Source: Candidatus Poseidoniaceae archaeon (GTDB lineage Archaea; Thermoplasmatota; Poseidoniia; Poseidoniales; Poseidoniaceae). From it: DNA of 59,646 nt. A model generated the notes under the pieces. That model was not told where the DNA came from. It searched no databases and worked only from the letters and a program-made list of their open reading frames with translations. Position numbers and translations under genes: made by a program. Shown in pieces: positions 49,877 to 56,938 of the stretch. How positions within the stretch are numbered: position 1 is the stretch's first letter; the number at the start of each line of letters is the position of its first letter. The DNA lies in NCBI GenBank assembly GCA_938084675.1, contig CALKGM010000035.1, positions 1 to 59,646 on the forward strand. The letters run 5' to 3'.

Positions 49877-50068
49877 ATGGGATTCTGTATTAATTGCGGC
49901 CAACAACATGCTGATGGAACCCGTTTCTGCCGATTTTGTGGGAACCAACAACCCGGAGAGCCTCTGCTCCAGCGACTTCGTATCGAAGCACAACAAATTC
50001 ATGCTATGCGTTTGCAAATGCAAGCACAGCAGCAAAATAACCAGTATCAGCAGCAACCTCGCTGGTGA
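49877..50068 (+). CDS. Small double-Cys zinc-ribbon protein
   Basis: 63 aa. The N-terminal half is a zinc ribbon (FCINCGQQHADGTRFCRFCG), two CxxC pairs spaced by 11 residues; the C-terminal half is a Gln-rich helix (LQMQAQQQNNQYQQQ). ATG 49877 begins the ribbon directly. Such short zinc ribbons are common in archaea and often bind RNA polymerase or protein partners. It overlaps the METTL5-like gene's possible GTG start by 4 bp. Confidence 0.8.
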   Translation: MGFCINCGQQHADGTRFCRFCGNQQPGEPLLQRLRIEAQQIHAMRLQMQAQQQNNQYQQQPRW

Positions 50069-50073
50069 GGCGG

Positions 50074-50721
50074 ATGCGCCCCAAACACTTGGCCATCAAG
50101 TTGTCAAAACTTCAGCCACATCCCTGTTTGGATGTACAACTCGAACAGTACGCTACAGAAGGGGACCTTGCCTCCTATTGGATGTTAGCGGTTGACCAAC
50201 TCGACGAACTCGATGGGAAAACTGTCCTTGACCTTGGAGCAGGCAACGGAGTGTTGGGGATTGCGTGTCTTCTCCTTGGCGCAAAACACGTTCACTTTGT
50301 TGAGTGCGACGAAGATGCGCTTGAAGTGTTGCGAACGAATCTAGAATCATCGTCCAACGAAGAATCTTGGACGATACACCCCACACGAATAGGCACTGAT
50401 GATTGGACGGTTCCTGAAACTGACCTTATTGTCATGAATCCACCTTGGGGCGTCCAAATGGCGAGAGCTGACCGTCCGTTTATTGAGGCTGCCTTGAGTA
50501 CTCAATGTGCAGCAATTCATCTTCTTCATAGCCGTGGCTCCAAGCATATTGGCGGGATGGTTCGAGACGCTGGATGGAAGTATGAACACGTGATTGCAAC
50601 TACGTTCAGATTGCCTGCTCTCTACGGACATCATTCAAAGCGCTCAAGTGACACTGAGGTCCTCTGTTGGCGAATCCATCGACGAGGAGATGCCCGTTTG
50701 CCCACTGAAGAAGACCAGTAG
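50074..50721 (+). CDS. METTL5-like N6-adenine rRNA methyltransferase
   Basis: Rossmann-fold SAM methyltransferase, 215 aa. It opens LAIKLSKLQPHPCLDVQLEQY, as METTL5 proteins do, then LDLGAGNGVLGI (SAM binding), the acidic VECDEDALE motif and a catalytic motif NPPWGVQ. METTL5 family members use NPPF to methylate adenine in small-subunit rRNA; here Trp replaces Phe. GTG 50065 is the in-frame alternative start overlapping the zinc-ribbon stop. It is followed by the Csl4-RRM fusion, which adds an RNA context. Confidence 0.82.
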   Translation: MRPKHLAIKLSKLQPHPCLDVQLEQYATEGDLASYWMLAVDQLDELDGKTVLDLGAGNGVLGIACLLLGAKHVHFVECDEDALEVLRTNLESSSNEESWTIHPTRIGTDDWTVPETDLIVMNPPWGVQMARADRPFIEAALSTQCAAIHLLHSRGSKHIGGMVRDAGWKYEHVIATTFRLPALYGHHSKRSSDTEVLCWRIHRRGDARLPTEEDQ

Positions 50722-50795: not shown

Positions 50796-52244
50796 ATGTC
50801 TGCTAAAGGAATGATAGACATGACGGCGAGCCTCGTCACCCCAGGAAGCATCATTGGCCAAGAAGGTCAACATACCACCGGTGAAGGTACAACACTTCAC
50901 GAAGGAAACATCATCGCAACCGTGATCGGTTCCGTCCGTATTGATGACGGCATGATTTCTGTTGGGGCTAGCAAAGCGATTATTGCGCCGAAAATTGGCG
51001 ATACTGTTCTTTGTGAAGTCACCAAACTTAACGAAAAGAACGGGGAAGCAATGATTCATGTCATCGAGGGCCAACAAGGCTCCATTCAACCTCAACACCT
51101 CTACGGGCAGTTCTACGTAACTGGGCTCGTGGACCGATTCATGCATCAAACATCAGATGCTTTGCGACGGAGAGATATTTGCCGCGCACTTGTCAAGGAA
51201 GTGACTCCTGTTGTCCGTTTGGATTTCCGTGAACGAAATGACTGCGGTGTTCTTCACGCAATTTGTCCTCCGTGTGGCGACACGTTAACCCTCCATCAAG
51301 ACGGAGACTGGAACATGCTTTGCCCTACCTGTGGCGCACAATCTTACAGAGCACTCGCCGATAATTACGGTGCTGGATGGGCAGAACTTGAACAAGGAGC
51401 AAGTTCCATGAACAACTCCGGAAAGCGCTGGGGCCCAGAAGCGGAAGCCATGTTTGCACGTGGACCTGCTGGCCGAGCGACCTTCATTGCAGCCGATGTC
51501 CGTGAAGATGGACGTGAGCGTACATACTTCCGTTTCGAAGGCATGGGTGGAGGCCGTGGAGGCCGACAAAAAGCAGCACCTGGGACTCGTCTGTTTGTGG
51601 GTGGACTTCCTCGTGAAGTTGGAACCGAACAACTGCGGGAACTCTTCGCAAAGCACGGCGAGATGACAGATTGTATCGTACTGGTTGATGATGCTGGTGC
51701 AAACCGTGGATTCGGATTCGTCACCTACGGCAGCAAGGCCATGGCCGATGCAGCCGCAGCAGCACTCGACGGACATCGAATCAACGGCCGACGCATTGGT
51801 GTTCGTGACGCGGACAGCGATGACAAAAAGAAGAAGAAAGGCGGACGAAGAGACCCTGAAGGGCTCAAACTCTACATTGGAAACCTTCCGTTTTCAGCAA
51901 CTCAAGAGCAACTTACCACGATGGTTGCTGCTCATGCGACGGTCAATGAAATCGTCATGGCCACCGACCCAGCCGGCAAATCCAAAGGATTTGGTTTTGC
52001 GTTCATCAAGGAAATGGATAAGGGAGAATCCGTAGTCAAGGCATTGAACGGAATGGAACTTGAAGGTCGGAAGATCAAAGTCGACATCGCCAAAGCCAAA
52101 GGCAGCGCTGGTGGAAAAGGTGGACGAGGCGCAAAATCAAGCGGTAACGAAGGTGGCAAGTCATCTCGTGAACTCCAAGCCATGCGTGAAGAGGGAGAAG
52201 GCGGAAAGAAGCGAAAGCGACGCTCTCGACCTAAGAAGGATTGA
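50796..52244 (+). CDS. Csl4-type exosome subunit fused to two RRM domains
   Basis: 482 aa from ATG 50796. Residues about 9-120 resemble Csl4: an N-terminal LVTPGSIIGQEGQHTTGEGT followed by an S1-like barrel. A zinc ribbon follows at Cys157, 160, 176 and 179. Then come two eukaryote-like RNA recognition motifs: RRM1 with RNP2 LFVGGL (266-271) and RNP1 RGFGFVTY (304-311), and RRM2 with RNP2 LYIGNL (359-364) and RNP1 KGFGFAFI (397-404). A lysine/glycine-rich basic tail closes it. Csl4 caps the archaeal RNA exosome; the RRMs would add sequence- or structure-selective RNA capture. Alternative ATGs at 50811 and 50820. Confidence 0.88.
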   Translation: MSAKGMIDMTASLVTPGSIIGQEGQHTTGEGTTLHEGNIIATVIGSVRIDDGMISVGASKAIIAPKIGDTVLCEVTKLNEKNGEAMIHVIEGQQGSIQPQHLYGQFYVTGLVDRFMHQTSDALRRRDICRALVKEVTPVVRLDFRERNDCGVLHAICPPCGDTLTLHQDGDWNMLCPTCGAQSYRALADNYGAGWAELEQGASSMNNSGKRWGPEAEAMFARGPAGRATFIAADVREDGRERTYFRFEGMGGGRGGRQKAAPGTRLFVGGLPREVGTEQLRELFAKHGEMTDCIVLVDDAGANRGFGFVTYGSKAMADAAAAALDGHRINGRRIGVRDADSDDKKKKKGGRRDPEGLKLYIGNLPFSATQEQLTTMVAAHATVNEIVMATDPAGKSKGFGFAFIKEMDKGESVVKALNGMELEGRKIKVDIAKAKGSAGGKGGRGAKSSGNEGGKSSRELQAMREEGEGGKKRKRRSRPKKD

Positions 52245-52270
52245 AGGTCAGTCTTCTGCCCACCTCAATC

Positions 52271-54043
52271 ATGGATAGCCACGATTCACCGGGATGGCTT
52301 GTCCTTGACGGCTACGAAGATGAGCCAGCAGCATTCGGAGTCCCGCCTTATGTTGGATTCCACATTCGCTACCTGTGCGGCGTCTTAGAACAGCGCGGAG
52401 TCCCTTACACTTACATGACTGTGGATCAGTGGCGACAGTGGCTCAAAAAAGACGGTGATGCTGCACAACAGTGGATGAAAGCCGTAGATGGTGTCGCATG
52501 TATCGCCGGTGCTGTCGTACCAGGACGATACTTGAGAGGAACCCCAATTTCCCTTAATGAAACACAACAACTCATTCGAATGATCCCGGGAGGTATTCCC
52601 GGATTGTTTGGAGGGTGGGCCATCCGCGGCTGGCGCCAACAGGGCTGGAATCCCCTACGCCCCAACCTTTTCCTGGCTGTCCAAGACACCGATGCCACAC
52701 TGGATGGATTTCTCAAGACTGGTGAGTGGAACCATGCCCGAAGAACAGGGGAGCAATGGACTGCGTGGGCGCAAGCCGGAGCGAGTAGCAAAGCGGTCCT
52801 TCATCATCCTGATTTAGGAACTGAAGAGCGCCCTGGCCCCCTCACCTATGAAGTCGAAGTTTACCAAGGCTGTGTTCGCTACAAACGTGGCTGCAAATTC
52901 TGTATTGAGCCAAAGAAAGGCGTCCCGATATGGCGTACTCCTGATGATATTATTGAAGAAGTTCGTCGTGCTCATGATGCTGGAGTCCACCATGTCCGCC
53001 TCGGAGGAATGACAGACACTTACACCTACATGGCGGAAGGTGTTCAGGAACTTGAATATCCAATCCCAAACCCTGAACCCATTGCAACATTGCTCCATGG
53101 CCTTAGGGAAGATGAGCGGTTAGGAATCCTTCACACCGATAACGGAAATCCTTCCATTATTGCTGAAAACATTGAGGAATCCGAAGCCATTACCAAAACC
53201 TTGGTAGAAACACTTTCAGATGGAGCAGTCCTCTCGTTCGGCCTGGAATCAGCAGACCCAAGCGTTCATGAAGCAAATTGGCTCAACTGTGACCCGAATC
53301 AGTTGAAATCAGCAATACGCCTCATCAATAAATATGGGCGGGAGCGTGGAGCGCGTGGGCTGCCCAAATTACTTCCTGGATTGAATTTTATCGCAGGCCT
53401 CAATGGCGAAACTGAGCAAACCTACGACATGAACCTAGCCCTACTTCAAGAAATCCGGGAAGAAGGGCTTATGCTGCGACGAATTAATATTCGGCAAGTT
53501 GAGGGAGAAGGTTTTCAAGAAATTCCACATCAAGCGTTCAATCGTTTCAAAGAAACATGTAGAGATACAATTGACAAACCCCTGCTGCAAGAACTGTTTC
53601 CCTTGGGAAGCATCCTTCGGGACGTACATTGGGAAACACATGATGGCCGAACACGATTGCCCGTTCACGAAACGGAAACCCACACCTCTACCACCGTTCA
53701 CGGCAAACCCGGAATCACATTTGGGAGGCAAATTGGAGCGTACCCCATTCTTATTGGAGCAGAGTACAAAATCCCACTGGAAACCCAATCAGATGTTGTC
53801 ATAACTGGTCATGGGGCGAGATCAATTACTGGAGTTGAACTCAGCCTTGACCCTGCTGTAATAACGGAAAAGCAATTGTGTTCTATTCCGGGAATAGGTG
53901 CTAAAACAGCTTGGAATTTGATCTCAAAGCGGGCTCGTGCTATGAGGAAAGGGAAGTCGACATCACCTTACCCCAGCCCTCAGGCATGGTTTACTGATTC
54001 TGGAGTTCAATGGAACGAATCGTATGGCGTGTTTTTCAGGTAA
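52271..54043 (+). CDS. Radical SAM protein with C-terminal HhH
   Basis: 590 aa. The Fe-S cluster motif is Cys201-x6-Cys208-x2-Cys211 (GCVRYKRGCKFC), wider than the usual CX3CX2C, but the downstream barrel features (VRLGGMTDTYTY, LSFGLESADPSVHE, NFIAGLNGETEQT) fit a radical SAM enzyme of the archaeal MJ-type group with this wider spacing. A helix-hairpin-helix at about 547-570 (SIPGIGAKTAWNL) suggests nucleic-acid or tRNA contact. The longer frame to 52241 overlaps the previous gene by 4 bp; ATG 52271 (MDSHDSPGW) is preferred. The substrate is unknown. Confidence 0.85.
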   Translation: MDSHDSPGWLVLDGYEDEPAAFGVPPYVGFHIRYLCGVLEQRGVPYTYMTVDQWRQWLKKDGDAAQQWMKAVDGVACIAGAVVPGRYLRGTPISLNETQQLIRMIPGGIPGLFGGWAIRGWRQQGWNPLRPNLFLAVQDTDATLDGFLKTGEWNHARRTGEQWTAWAQAGASSKAVLHHPDLGTEERPGPLTYEVEVYQGCVRYKRGCKFCIEPKKGVPIWRTPDDIIEEVRRAHDAGVHHVRLGGMTDTYTYMAEGVQELEYPIPNPEPIATLLHGLREDERLGILHTDNGNPSIIAENIEESEAITKTLVETLSDGAVLSFGLESADPSVHEANWLNCDPNQLKSAIRLINKYGRERGARGLPKLLPGLNFIAGLNGETEQTYDMNLALLQEIREEGLMLRRINIRQVEGEGFQEIPHQAFNRFKETCRDTIDKPLLQELFPLGSILRDVHWETHDGRTRLPVHETETHTSTTVHGKPGITFGRQIGAYPILIGAEYKIPLETQSDVVITGHGARSITGVELSLDPAVITEKQLCSIPGIGAKTAWNLISKRARAMRKGKSTSPYPSPQAWFTDSGVQWNESYGVFFR

Positions 54044-54151
54044 TTACCTATTTTGAATAATTGTCAACCCGAATCGCATATTGTAATTCATTTGAAAAGA
54101 AGTATTACTTTTTCCGCAACAAACAAAAGTCTCGGGCGTGTGGGAAGAGTT
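54044..54151 (+). promoter_or_regulatory. AT-rich promoter region of the GGNNT surface protein
   Basis: 108 bp of unusually AT-rich sequence for this window, with a candidate purine-rich/TATA pair (TTGAAAAGAAGTATTACTT) at about 54092-54110, roughly 45 bp before ATG 54152. That leaves a short leader. The placement is tentative. Confidence 0.35.
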
Positions 54152-56938
54152 ATGCAGAAAAAATCAGTGATTGCATTTGTGTTCATTTTTATGATCCAAG
54201 CGATGTCCGCAGGTCTTGCAACAATACCGTCTCAATACGAGGAGGATTCCTGGCAGGGACCTGTTCTTGAATCAGGGGCACGCTCAGTAGGCGTCCTTAC
54301 AGATTCTCAACAACAATCCATGTTGTACAACCAAAGCTACAACGGTAATAACGACAACGATGGCGATGGAGTCGTAGACAGTCTTGATTCCGATGACGAT
54401 AACGATTGCATTCCGGATTCAAACGACACTTCGCCGATGGACTTTGATGGCGATGGCATTAACGATGAATCTGACATTGACGATGATGGTGATGGATTGA
54501 ATGATTCGTTGGAAGTGAGTGATTCAAATGCATCAACCAACATCTATGACGCTGATAACGATGGAAACCACGACTGTGCCTTCTTCTCAAGTGGAAGTTC
54601 AAGTGGCGGCAACAATACTGGTGGTAACAACACTGGCGGTAACAACACTGGCGGTAACAACACTGGCGGTAACAACACTGGCGGCAACAATACTGGTGGT
54701 AACAATACCGGTGGTAACAACACTGGAGGCAACAACACTGGCGGTAACAACACAGGCGGCAACAACACTTGTCATCCCTCAAATGGTCCAGAATACAACT
54801 TGAGCCTGGACAACTCAATCTACCATCCAACCGATACCGTCAATGCAGTTTTCGATTTCTTTTGCATGGATAACAAAGCAGGAATTTATACTGGGGTTTC
54901 GTATTGGGTATACGGACCATCAGGCCAGATTAGCAGTACCTTTTACGTTCACGATACGAGCACCAATTACTACTTCTGGGACCTTGACAATCGAAGTAAC
55001 AATTTCTCTGAAACCGGATGGTTGATTCCGACTGGTAGCGGCAACATGTCCGTGGGTAATTACTACGTGTATTCCGAATTATGGGACAACAACACACATG
55101 TTGATACCGCAAATGTCAGTTTCTCAGTATCAAACTCTTCTTCAAATGGCGGTGGCGGCAACAACAGCGGTGGTAACCAAACCTCGCCATGTGGAAGCAA
55201 CGTCGGTTATACCACTGTATATGCATATGCTCCTTCCATGTTGATGGAGAATCAGTCCTTTACGACAGGGATGTACGTGAATTGTCAAATTTTGAATTCA
55301 AACATGATGCTCGTCTACTGGATCTACGATGCAAACAACTACACTGTTTACGCTGGAAACCAGTCATGGACCGGCACAACGAGCAACAACTCAAACTTCA
55401 ACTGGTCTGTGGGAGGTCTTAGCGCAGGAAACTACACGTTCCATGCTGAACTCTACGTCAATGGAACCTTCGTTGACAGCGATTCTGGTGGAATTATGGT
55501 CTACGCCAACAACAGCGGTGGCGGCAACAACACCAATCAATTAACTTACTATGCTTATCTGCTGCAATATTGCTTTAGTACCGCAGAAGATATTGAAATT
55601 TTCATGACCATCAGCGGACTTAATGCGACAGAATTCTATCTCGAGTGGGAAATCACGAGCGGCTCAACTCTTGTTGCTTCAGGAAGTCCGTTAATCAGCG
55701 TAAATTCTTCCGGCATTGTATCTTATGCGTGGACTTTCAATACGTCTGCACTCAATTCAGGTATTTACACAGTAATGCTTAATCCAGCGGATTCAGGATT
55801 GAGCAATTTGTTTTCAAACAGCCCGTTCTACTACAACATTGAAGTTGATTGCAACAATACTGGTGGAAACAACACAGGTGGTAACAATACTGGTGGCAAC
55901 AACACCGGTGGTAACAATACTGGCGGTAACAACACCGGCGGCAACAACACTGGCGGTAACAACACAGGTAACACTACGAATGATTGCATAGACAATAATG
56001 CACCAACTGGTTACCTCACAGAACTATCCATTTGGACTGACAAAACTGAGTATGTGTTGGGTGAAACAACATACGGTACGTTCTATGTGAATTGTACTGT
56101 GGTTGGAGAAGATTATCAATTGCGCTATTGGATTGATGCCGGAGCAAGCTACGATTATGGGTGGTGGAATTGGACCGCAACTCAAGACACATCGGTTATC
56201 ACGATGAATTGGGTTCTACCCGACGCAGTTTCAGGCTACCATTTGCATGGTGAACTCGAACAAGATGGCCTCTGGCTAGCGAATGTCATATCGGATAGTT
56301 TCGATATTGTCGCCAACAACAGTGGAGGTGGCAACACCGGCGGAAACAACACTGGTGGTAACAACACCGGCGGAAACAACACTGGTGGCAACAACACTGG
56401 CGGTAACAACACTGGCGGCAACAATACTGGTGGTAACAACACTGGCGGTAACAATACTGGTGGTAACAACACTGGCGGTAACAACACTGGCGGTAACAAC
56501 ACTGGCGGTAACAACACTGGCGGTAACAACACTGGCGGCAACAACACTGTGATACCAAATACTGCACCAAGTGTTTCGGGCGTATCCATATCACCGGTTT
56601 TGACGACAGCTGACGACACTCTGACGTGCGCATACACCGTCATTGACTTGGATGGTGACACCACAACGGCAACCGTAACTTGGTCTGTCAATGGTAACAT
56701 CATTCTTACCGGATCGGATTCATTGACCGGAGGGTTTGCAGTCGGTGATGATGTCGTATGCTCCGTCACAGCAACGGATGGACAACAACCGAGCACTGCC
56801 GCATCTGCATCAACTGTAATCTTACCCGTTCCAAGTGTGGACTCAGATGATGGGGAAGGTCTTCCAGCGCTTGGAACCATTGGTACTATGGCTGCAATTG
56901 CTGCAGGTGTATTCGCATCTCGTCGTAAAGACGAATGA
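54152..56938 (+). CDS. Surface protein with calcium-binding and sequon-rich GGNNT stalks
   Basis: About 928 aa from ATG 54152 (MQKKSVIAFVFIF), which begins the signal peptide. Order: Asp-rich thrombospondin-type-3-like calcium loops (DGDGVVDSLDSDDDND, DIDDDGDGLND), GGNNT tract 1, three beta-sandwich-like modules interleaved with two further GGNNT tracts, a PKD/Ig-like module (TAPSVSGVSISP), and a C-terminal anchor DDGEGLPALGTIGTMAAIAAGVFASRRKDE-type: short motif, hydrophobic helix, basic end. Each NNT is an N-x-T sequon, so the stalks could be heavily N-glycosylated. The gene has its own AT-rich upstream region. Confidence 0.85.
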   Translation: MQKKSVIAFVFIFMIQAMSAGLATIPSQYEEDSWQGPVLESGARSVGVLTDSQQQSMLYNQSYNGNNDNDGDGVVDSLDSDDDNDCIPDSNDTSPMDFDGDGINDESDIDDDGDGLNDSLEVSDSNASTNIYDADNDGNHDCAFFSSGSSSGGNNTGGNNTGGNNTGGNNTGGNNTGGNNTGGNNTGGNNTGGNNTGGNNTGGNNTCHPSNGPEYNLSLDNSIYHPTDTVNAVFDFFCMDNKAGIYTGVSYWVYGPSGQISSTFYVHDTSTNYYFWDLDNRSNNFSETGWLIPTGSGNMSVGNYYVYSELWDNNTHVDTANVSFSVSNSSSNGGGGNNSGGNQTSPCGSNVGYTTVYAYAPSMLMENQSFTTGMYVNCQILNSNMMLVYWIYDANNYTVYAGNQSWTGTTSNNSNFNWSVGGLSAGNYTFHAELYVNGTFVDSDSGGIMVYANNSGGGNNTNQLTYYAYLLQYCFSTAEDIEIFMTISGLNATEFYLEWEITSGSTLVASGSPLISVNSSGIVSYAWTFNTSALNSGIYTVMLNPADSGLSNLFSNSPFYYNIEVDCNNTGGNNTGGNNTGGNNTGGNNTGGNNTGGNNTGGNNTGNTTNDCIDNNAPTGYLTELSIWTDKTEYVLGETTYGTFYVNCTVVGEDYQLRYWIDAGASYDYGWWNWTATQDTSVITMNWVLPDAVSGYHLHGELEQDGLWLANVISDSFDIVANNSGGGNTGGNNTGGNNTGGNNTGGNNTGGNNTGGNNTGGNNTGGNNTGGNNTGGNNTGGNNTGGNNTGGNNTGGNNTVIPNTAPSVSGVSISPVLTTADDTLTCAYTVIDLDGDTTTATVTWSVNGNIILTGSDSLTGGFAVGDDVVCSVTATDGQQPSTAASASTVILPVPSVDSDDGEGLPALGTIGTMAAIAAGVFASRRKDE
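54605..54769 (+). repeat. GGNNT repeat tract 1
   Basis: Eleven 15-bp units in frame, each encoding GGNNT, with synonymous codon drift (ggt/ggc/gga, aat/aac, act/aca/acc). The drift shows that selection is on the peptide, not the DNA. It contains eleven N-x-T sequons. Confidence 0.95.
55853..55966 (+). repeat. GGNNT repeat tract 2
   Basis: One NNT plus seven full GGNNT units in frame (eight sequons), between two beta-sandwich-like modules of the same surface protein. It is followed by a degenerate GNTTN end. Confidence 0.95.
56327..56548 (+). repeat. GGNNT repeat tract 3
   Basis: One degenerate GGGNT (no sequon) and fourteen exact GGNNT units in frame (14 N-x-T sequons). It is the longest of the three stalks and sits nearest the membrane anchor. 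Confidence 0.95.

Follow-up and report, generated by a model that had tools for sequence, protein, structure and literature searches.

Background

Archaeal Csl4, as represented by the A. fulgidus protein of known structure (2BA1) and by the model NF034126, comprises an N-terminal domain, an S1 fold and a zinc ribbon with four cysteines. According to PMC4227792, the N-terminal domain is the ring anchor in known archaeal Csl4, and DnaG and Rrp4 confer a preference for poly(A) on the Sulfolobus exosome. The same paper describes an engineered C-terminal fusion of the DnaG N-terminal domain (NTD) to S. solfataricus Csl4, which shifted poly(A), while Csl4 alone did not, and reports that the exosome with the Csl4-DnaG-NTD fusion was the most efficient on an A-rich transcript. 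RNA recognition motifs (RRMs) are found in small prokaryotic proteins, such as those of the Rbp model NF058537 and the free RRM proteins of archaea; these have a canonical RRM_1 domain with RNP1 and RNP2 motifs, but are stand-alone, with frames mostly of ~80-160 aa. In the eukaryotic exosome, separate and exchangeable RNA-binding adaptor proteins help to direct RNA. How archaea choose the target RNAs of their exosome is, to our knowledge, largely open, and no transcript-specific adaptor of the archaeal exosome was found in the literature searched.

The window studied here, i.e. the whole stretch of 59,646 nt that was analysed, encodes an archaeal Csl4 with a linker, two RRMs and a basic tail in one chain. 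Its layout is that of the engineered S. solfataricus chimera (PMC4227792), with an RNA-binding domain on the C-terminus of Csl4, but the chimera is a laboratory construct with the DnaG NTD, whereas the present fusion is natural, carries RRMs, occurs in two families and is accompanied by a separately encoded DnaG. With the eukaryotic adaptor systems it has in common that RNA-binding modules would help to direct RNA to an exosome; there, however, the adaptors are separate, while the RRMs described here are covalently attached, and to an archaeal exosome subunit. Csl4 and RRM domains are both known; what is new, as far as we have seen, is that they are combined, that the fusion occurs in two families and that it comes with two types of head.

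Results and discussion

Domain organization of the fusion protein

The gene and its parts, all on the forward strand of the window, which contains zero N, are as follows.

50796..52244, +, whole Csl4-RRM-RRM fusion gene, 482 aa, a frame without interruption
50832..50945, +, ECR1_N / Csl4 N-terminal domain (PF14382, 35 bits, cut-off 27)
50985..51233, +, Csl4 S1-like domain, approximate limits, within the NF034126 match (residues 13-192), modelled fold similar to 2ba1
51264..51332, +, Csl4 zinc ribbon CPPCG...CPTCG, with Cys columns common to named archaeal Csl4 in the alignment
51396..51581, +, conserved linker, residues 201-262 between the zinc ribbon and RRM1, with the core GKRWGPEAEAMFARGPAGRATFIAADVREDGR (alignment)
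51591..51797, +, RRM1 (PF00076, RRM_1, 67.1 bits, cut-off 20.7)
51870..52079, +, RRM2 (PF00076, RRM_1, 47.8 bits, cut-off 20.7)
52104..52241, +, basic Gly/Lys/Arg tail with a conserved SSREL..REE-like core, under weaker constraint

The original prediction had read the protein as a Csl4 N-terminus, an S1-like region, a zinc ribbon, two RRMs and a basic tail, and profile matches, cysteines and RNP motifs bear out this reading. Its span of 50796-52244 holds as a single uninterrupted frame, but the true start is probably the Met at ~50820 (MTASLVTPG), because the aligned relatives have this Met in common. The Csl4 model NF034126 matches with 98.6 bits (cut-off 90) over model positions 2-179 of 180, and all four zinc-ribbon cysteines are present (C157, C160, C176 and C179). 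The conserved linker, to which the original prediction had not pointed, is without an NCBIfam match. Both RRMs exceed the RRM_1 cut-off and each has the predicted pair of motifs: LFVGGL (RNP2) and RGFGFVTY (RNP1, 51705-51728) in RRM1, and LYIGNL and KGFGFAFI (51984-52007) in RRM2, so that in the latter the last aromatic residue of RNP1 is replaced by Ile in the window protein. They are the only RRM_1 matches in the assembly, which is 91.6% complete, and the fusion is its only Csl4, a second, weak match of the Csl4 model being Rrp4.

The closest Csl4 structure by sequence is PDB 2ba1, with an E-value of 2e-12 over residues 13-194. A structure of residues 1-200, predicted with 53 Csl4 rows from named archaea, has a mean pLDDT of 85.3, and its best match among solved structures is again 2ba1_A (E 3.2e-16, TM 0.58/0.65), followed by eukaryotic exosome chains, several of them named Csl4. 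The rmsd of 9.5 over 182 columns is high, which indicates that the domains agree with those of 2BA1 but that their mutual placement is not tightly superposed. A model of the full-length protein from the single sequence reached a pLDDT of only 34.7 and was useless.

Genomic neighbourhood and orthology

The fusion gene is flanked on the same strand by two further genes.

50065..50721, +, methyltransferase gene upstream of the fusion, a recurrent neighbour of archaeal csl4 by synteny (PF05175, 53 bits)
52241..54043, +, radical SAM gene downstream (PF04055, 44.9 bits; also a weak helix-hairpin-helix match), with a 4-nt overlap at the csl4 stop

A methyltransferase gene similar to that of the window adjoins csl4 on the same strand at many archaeal loci: this holds for 48 of 50 loci of the window's class (40 upstream and 8 scored downstream, the latter probably owing to overlap of stop-to-stop frames) and, among other archaea, for 28 of 76 named loci (22 upstream, 6 downstream), including Helarchaeota, Hydrothermarchaeota, Thermococci and Methanocella. 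Since this neighbour is shared with csl4 of other archaea, the fusion gene is the orthologous csl4 with added domains and not a second, moonlighting copy. A relative of the radical SAM gene lies downstream of csl4 on the same strand at 31 of the 50 class loci. Further downstream in the window, a frame of 961 aa (54053-56938, +) with long GGNNT repeats and a hydrophobic stretch followed by a basic C-terminus resembles a surface protein by eye.

Two fused families and an unfused one

An RRM was found in 260 of the 292 genomes of the window's class, whose assemblies are mostly incomplete, and 32 had no match in this search; a match to the Csl4 model, cross-matches to Rrp4 included, is present in 282 of the 292, and in 184 it exceeds the cut-off. 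Three arrangements can be distinguished. In the window's family (f1), Csl4 is followed by the linker and two RRMs. In a sister family (f2), a linker homologous to that of f1 leads from Csl4 to a treble-clef zinc finger, which is followed by a single RRM; an RG-rich tail is frequent. In L082:3350-4621 (-), for example, a CxxC-x17-CxxC treble-clef finger lies between the linker and the RRM, at the position of RRM1 in f1. The two f2 proteins that were scored match TIGR04272 (48.3 and 40.8 bits, cut-off 36) and PF23477 (47.3 and 39 bits, cut-off 27), and a cryptic first RRM at this position was rejected in favour of the finger on these scores and on 10 aligned f2 rows. Some f2 Csl4 matches lie under the NF034126 cut-off (e.g. 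L076, 80 bits against 90). In a third family (f3), Csl4 and RRM are encoded by separate genes: among the matches listed, 12 of 13 f3 Csl4 domains are unfused in frames of 185-235 aa, the remaining one, in an N-rich frame of 294 aa, having its extra length upstream of Csl4, and the free RRM proteins are in frames of 85-105 aa. The group carrying the fusion is widespread and is probably the marine Poseidoniales.

Individual members show further variation. In one f1 protein (L075:3112-4545, genome G080) the zinc ribbon is without two of its four cysteines (CSNSG...CHTSG), with both RRMs kept. Two genomes have two fused Csl4 genes each, namely G238 (on contigs C52 and C65) and G260 (C63 and C88); the pair in G238 consists of one f1-type and one f2-type gene and may reflect contamination of the bin.

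An assembly join is ruled out

The assembly consists of 49 contigs, one of which is the window, and this leaves room for an artefact in which a sequencing error merged two neighbouring genes, and the original prediction had named a join at the domain junction as a risk. The relatives reject it. Among the matches listed (135 genomes), 130 of 137 Csl4 matches of f1 and f2 have a frame of 404 aa or more, and 5 of the 7 shorter frames either run off their contigs (G278, G091, G229 and G223) or are broken at Ns (G121). For the RRM matches of the two families, the frame is 401 aa or longer in 128 of 133 cases among the matches listed, and of the 5 shorter ones, one runs off a contig (G234) and one is broken at Ns (again G121); also among the matches listed, 57 rows agree in both contig and frame length between Csl4 and RRM. 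The fusion is present in all 39 full-length proteins of 21 genera (21 of f1 and 18 of f2), although this figure is a description and not an independent count, because the proteins were picked from long-frame matches (with L087, the second copy in G238, left out). One fusion lies on a genome assembled as a single contig of 2.06 Mb (G002), and the linker is under purifying selection (see below). A join in assembly or annotation is thus ruled out, the chance of such a sequencing error being negligible, and the fusion is a genuine feature of both families.

Conservation of the linker and the RRMs

Comparison with two relatives indicates that the linker and the RRMs are under purifying selection comparable to that on Csl4. 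In the comparison with G006, dN/dS is 0.055 (Csl4), 0.051 (linker), 0.026 (RRM1), 0.042 (RRM2) and 0.29 (tail); with G004 the corresponding values are 0.097, 0.076, 0.032, 0.127 and 0.19, so that constraint on RRM2 is here a little weaker than on Csl4. In a third comparison, with G110 (L151), Csl4 and RRM1 show saturation at synonymous sites. All 60 fused RRMs analysed retain the RNP1 pattern and 57 of 60 retain that of RNP2, which favours binding of RNA over binding of protein.

These data bear on the possibility that the RRMs are protein-binding modules that tie the exosome to the ribosome, SBDS, a helicase or RNA polymerase without any selection of RNA. RRMs can bind proteins, the end of RNP1 in RRM2 is weakened, and the methyltransferase gene next to csl4 is a hint of work on rRNA or the ribosome. 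The retention of RNP1 with its aromatics in 60/60 fused RRMs is, however, unlike typical protein-only RRMs, and we consider this reading unlikely. Still less probable is that the protein has its main role away from the exosome, as a cold-shock RNA-binding protein or general RNA chaperone that has kept a Csl4 head. Small proteins with an RRM and a glycine/arginine tail are common in prokaryotes, and the f2 tail is RG-rich, but constraint on the Csl4 part is similar to that on the RRMs, its modelled structure matches Csl4, and no second Csl4 was found in the assembly, in which genes for the ring, Rrp4 and DnaG are all present.

Origin of the fusion

The linkers of f1 and f2 match each other over a core of 45 residues with a profile-profile probability of 96.4%, compared with at most 4.7% in 20 column-shuffled controls, and this homology favours a single fusion event before the two families split. 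Most likely, as judged from sequence comparison, the fusion arose once in the common ancestor of f1 and f2.

A tree of 89 RRM domains (86 columns, midpoint root), in which many forks are unresolved, agrees in part. The RRM1 domains of f1 form one group (99/94), and this group joins the f2 RRMs together with two f1 RRM2 rows of one genus, with values (95/78) under the threshold; a fused RRM was thus probably inherited from one event. RRM2 of f1 is fast-evolving and does not form one group, and a simple duplication relating RRM1 and RRM2 was not recovered in this tree. Canonical as they are, like those of the small prokaryotic proteins, the fused RRMs fall outside a separate group (99/91) formed by 29 free archaeal RRMs, f3 included. 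A free RRM of f3 as the direct source of the fused one is not supported, since it groups with the other free archaeal RRMs.

The original claim of a eukaryote-like division of labour in one chain is overstated in view of the RRM scores, which are about the same with the prokaryotic Rbp model as with eukaryotic RRM models (45.6 versus 46.2 bits for RRM1 and 55.5 versus 59.2 bits for RRM2). Neither these two domains alone nor the whole protein (97.1 bits) reach the cut-off of 100 of NF058537, while a free RRM protein of f3 (L013) exceeds it with 115.5 bits.

Proposed function on the exosome cap

In profile searches, the genome yielded Rrp41 (328 bits, cut-off 318.7), Rrp42 (239 bits, below the cut-off of 280), Rrp4 (154 bits, below the cut-off of 200) and DnaG (356.6 bits, cut-off 300), the latter covering positions 1-418 of 419 of the model, the C-terminal domain (CTD) included. 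SBDS, Rrp4, Rrp41 and Rrp42 form one gene cluster and DnaG is encoded elsewhere. With Rrp41, Rrp42, Rrp4 and a full-length DnaG encoded, the RRMs were added onto a complete exosome gene set. A third gene of the RNase PH type, for a bacterial-type ribonuclease PH, was also seen (G000:C18:40966-41355; L067:1435-2277; TIGR01966, 249.8 bits, cut-off 141.5).

The engineered Csl4-DnaG-NTD fusion of PMC4227792 indicates that a swap of adaptors can work, and the RRMs might have replaced a lost DnaG in the role of poly(A)/RNA adaptor on the cap. The presence of DnaG over essentially its whole model makes this highly improbable, and it is rejected for the genome of the window: the RRMs are an addition to DnaG, not a substitute. 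This, too, makes the claim of a eukaryote-like division of labour an overstatement, since DnaG, the archaeal cap adaptor, is still encoded at full length.

We favour the reading that the RRMs are tethered substrate-capture arms on the exosome cap, and give this explanation as a whole, the single origin included, a probability of roughly 0.7. The Csl4 part would belong to the trimeric cap and dock there on the Rrp41/Rrp42 ring; from this cap the conserved linker of ~60 residues would hold out the two RRMs and the basic tail. The RRMs would bind RNA where it is single-stranded and hand its 3' end over to the S1 pore, and such capture may raise the affinity of the exosome and bias its choice of substrates for decay or tailing. 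With at most three Csl4 subunits per cap, up to six RRMs could be present per complex, and they would add to DnaG without replacing it. Selective recruitment of RNA into the exosome, as originally proposed, thus appears to be the best account of the RRMs, which probably let the exosome choose which RNAs to degrade.

A bolder extension, which we put forward tentatively and do not expect to hold in full, is that the exosome of these archaea is a transcript-selective decay machine, in which no more than three covalent RRM arms per complex read elements in mRNAs or precursors of stable RNAs, and in which sister families use different reading heads. If true, this would be an archaeal and independently built counterpart of the element-directed decay of eukaryotes. 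The heads differ on one Csl4 scaffold, with two RRMs in f1 versus a treble-clef finger and an RRM in f2, and two families with RRMs hard-wired on the cap would amount to a natural version of the Sulfolobus experiment described in PMC4227792. Two heads on one scaffold, together with the unfused sister f3, allow a direct test of how the exosome selects its substrates, for which small recombinant complexes suffice.

Search outside the class

A search with the Csl4 alignment returned 80 named loci, comprising 76 Csl4, three Rrp4-like loci and one that was too partial; the three, of the Methanobrevibacter type (L230-L232), were set aside as Rrp4 on a KH-like segment judged by eye. None of the 76 named Csl4 loci has an RRM. 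Csl4 proteins sampled outside the class end soon after the zinc ribbon, in contrast to the fusion with its linker, two RRMs and basic tail, and the longest C-terminal tail among the 76 is RG-rich and has 73 aa. No RRM was found in eight genomes, from several phyla, that lie behind the named Csl4 loci.

The expectation that RRMs are rare in archaea agrees with the samples taken outside the class, where they are uncommon. In the same phylum, an RRM is present in 21 of 255 sampled genomes, in frames of 81-158 aa among the matches listed. The phylum of L212 (Helarchaeota) has an RRM in 2 of 195 genomes, with a 97-aa frame in the first and a large unrelated protein in the second, that of L220 (Thaumarchaeota) in 0 of 260, and that of L224 (Methanocella) in 35 of 256, of which 28 are strong and the three longest strong frames are single RRMs behind an upstream open frame. 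Scores of 20.6-23.8 bits kept the seven weak Halobacteriota-type RRM_1 matches out of the strong 28; one of the seven (L248) is a 337-aa frame without an RRM core, PurM-like by eye. A 577-residue, open-ended frame in the phylum of L212 (L235:1-1734), of AlbA/ATP-binding type by eye, has an RRM at its C-terminal end.

No relatives of the whole query were found on viral contigs, and a PHROGs search gave no match. In IMG/VR, 19 loci (L249-L267) encode RRM proteins that match only the RRM part of the fusion, with at most 46% identity in the best segment. The original prediction knew of no described Csl4-RRM fusion, and we likewise found no description of a natural one in the literature searched, whose reach takes in few subscription papers.

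Long Csl4 frames elsewhere in the phylum were considered as candidate fusions and rejected: in the ten longest of the matches listed (G498, G427, G311, G447, G363, G371, G501, G319, G307 and G449) most of the additional length comes from open frame upstream of Csl4, and none contains an RRM match. The Csl4 of G307 has an RG-rich tail. Two unfused Csl4 proteins outside the class (L164:2267-3274 and L142:1138-2217) have Arg/Gly-rich C-terminal tails of ~50-73 residues, perhaps a simpler way of adding RNA binding at this position.
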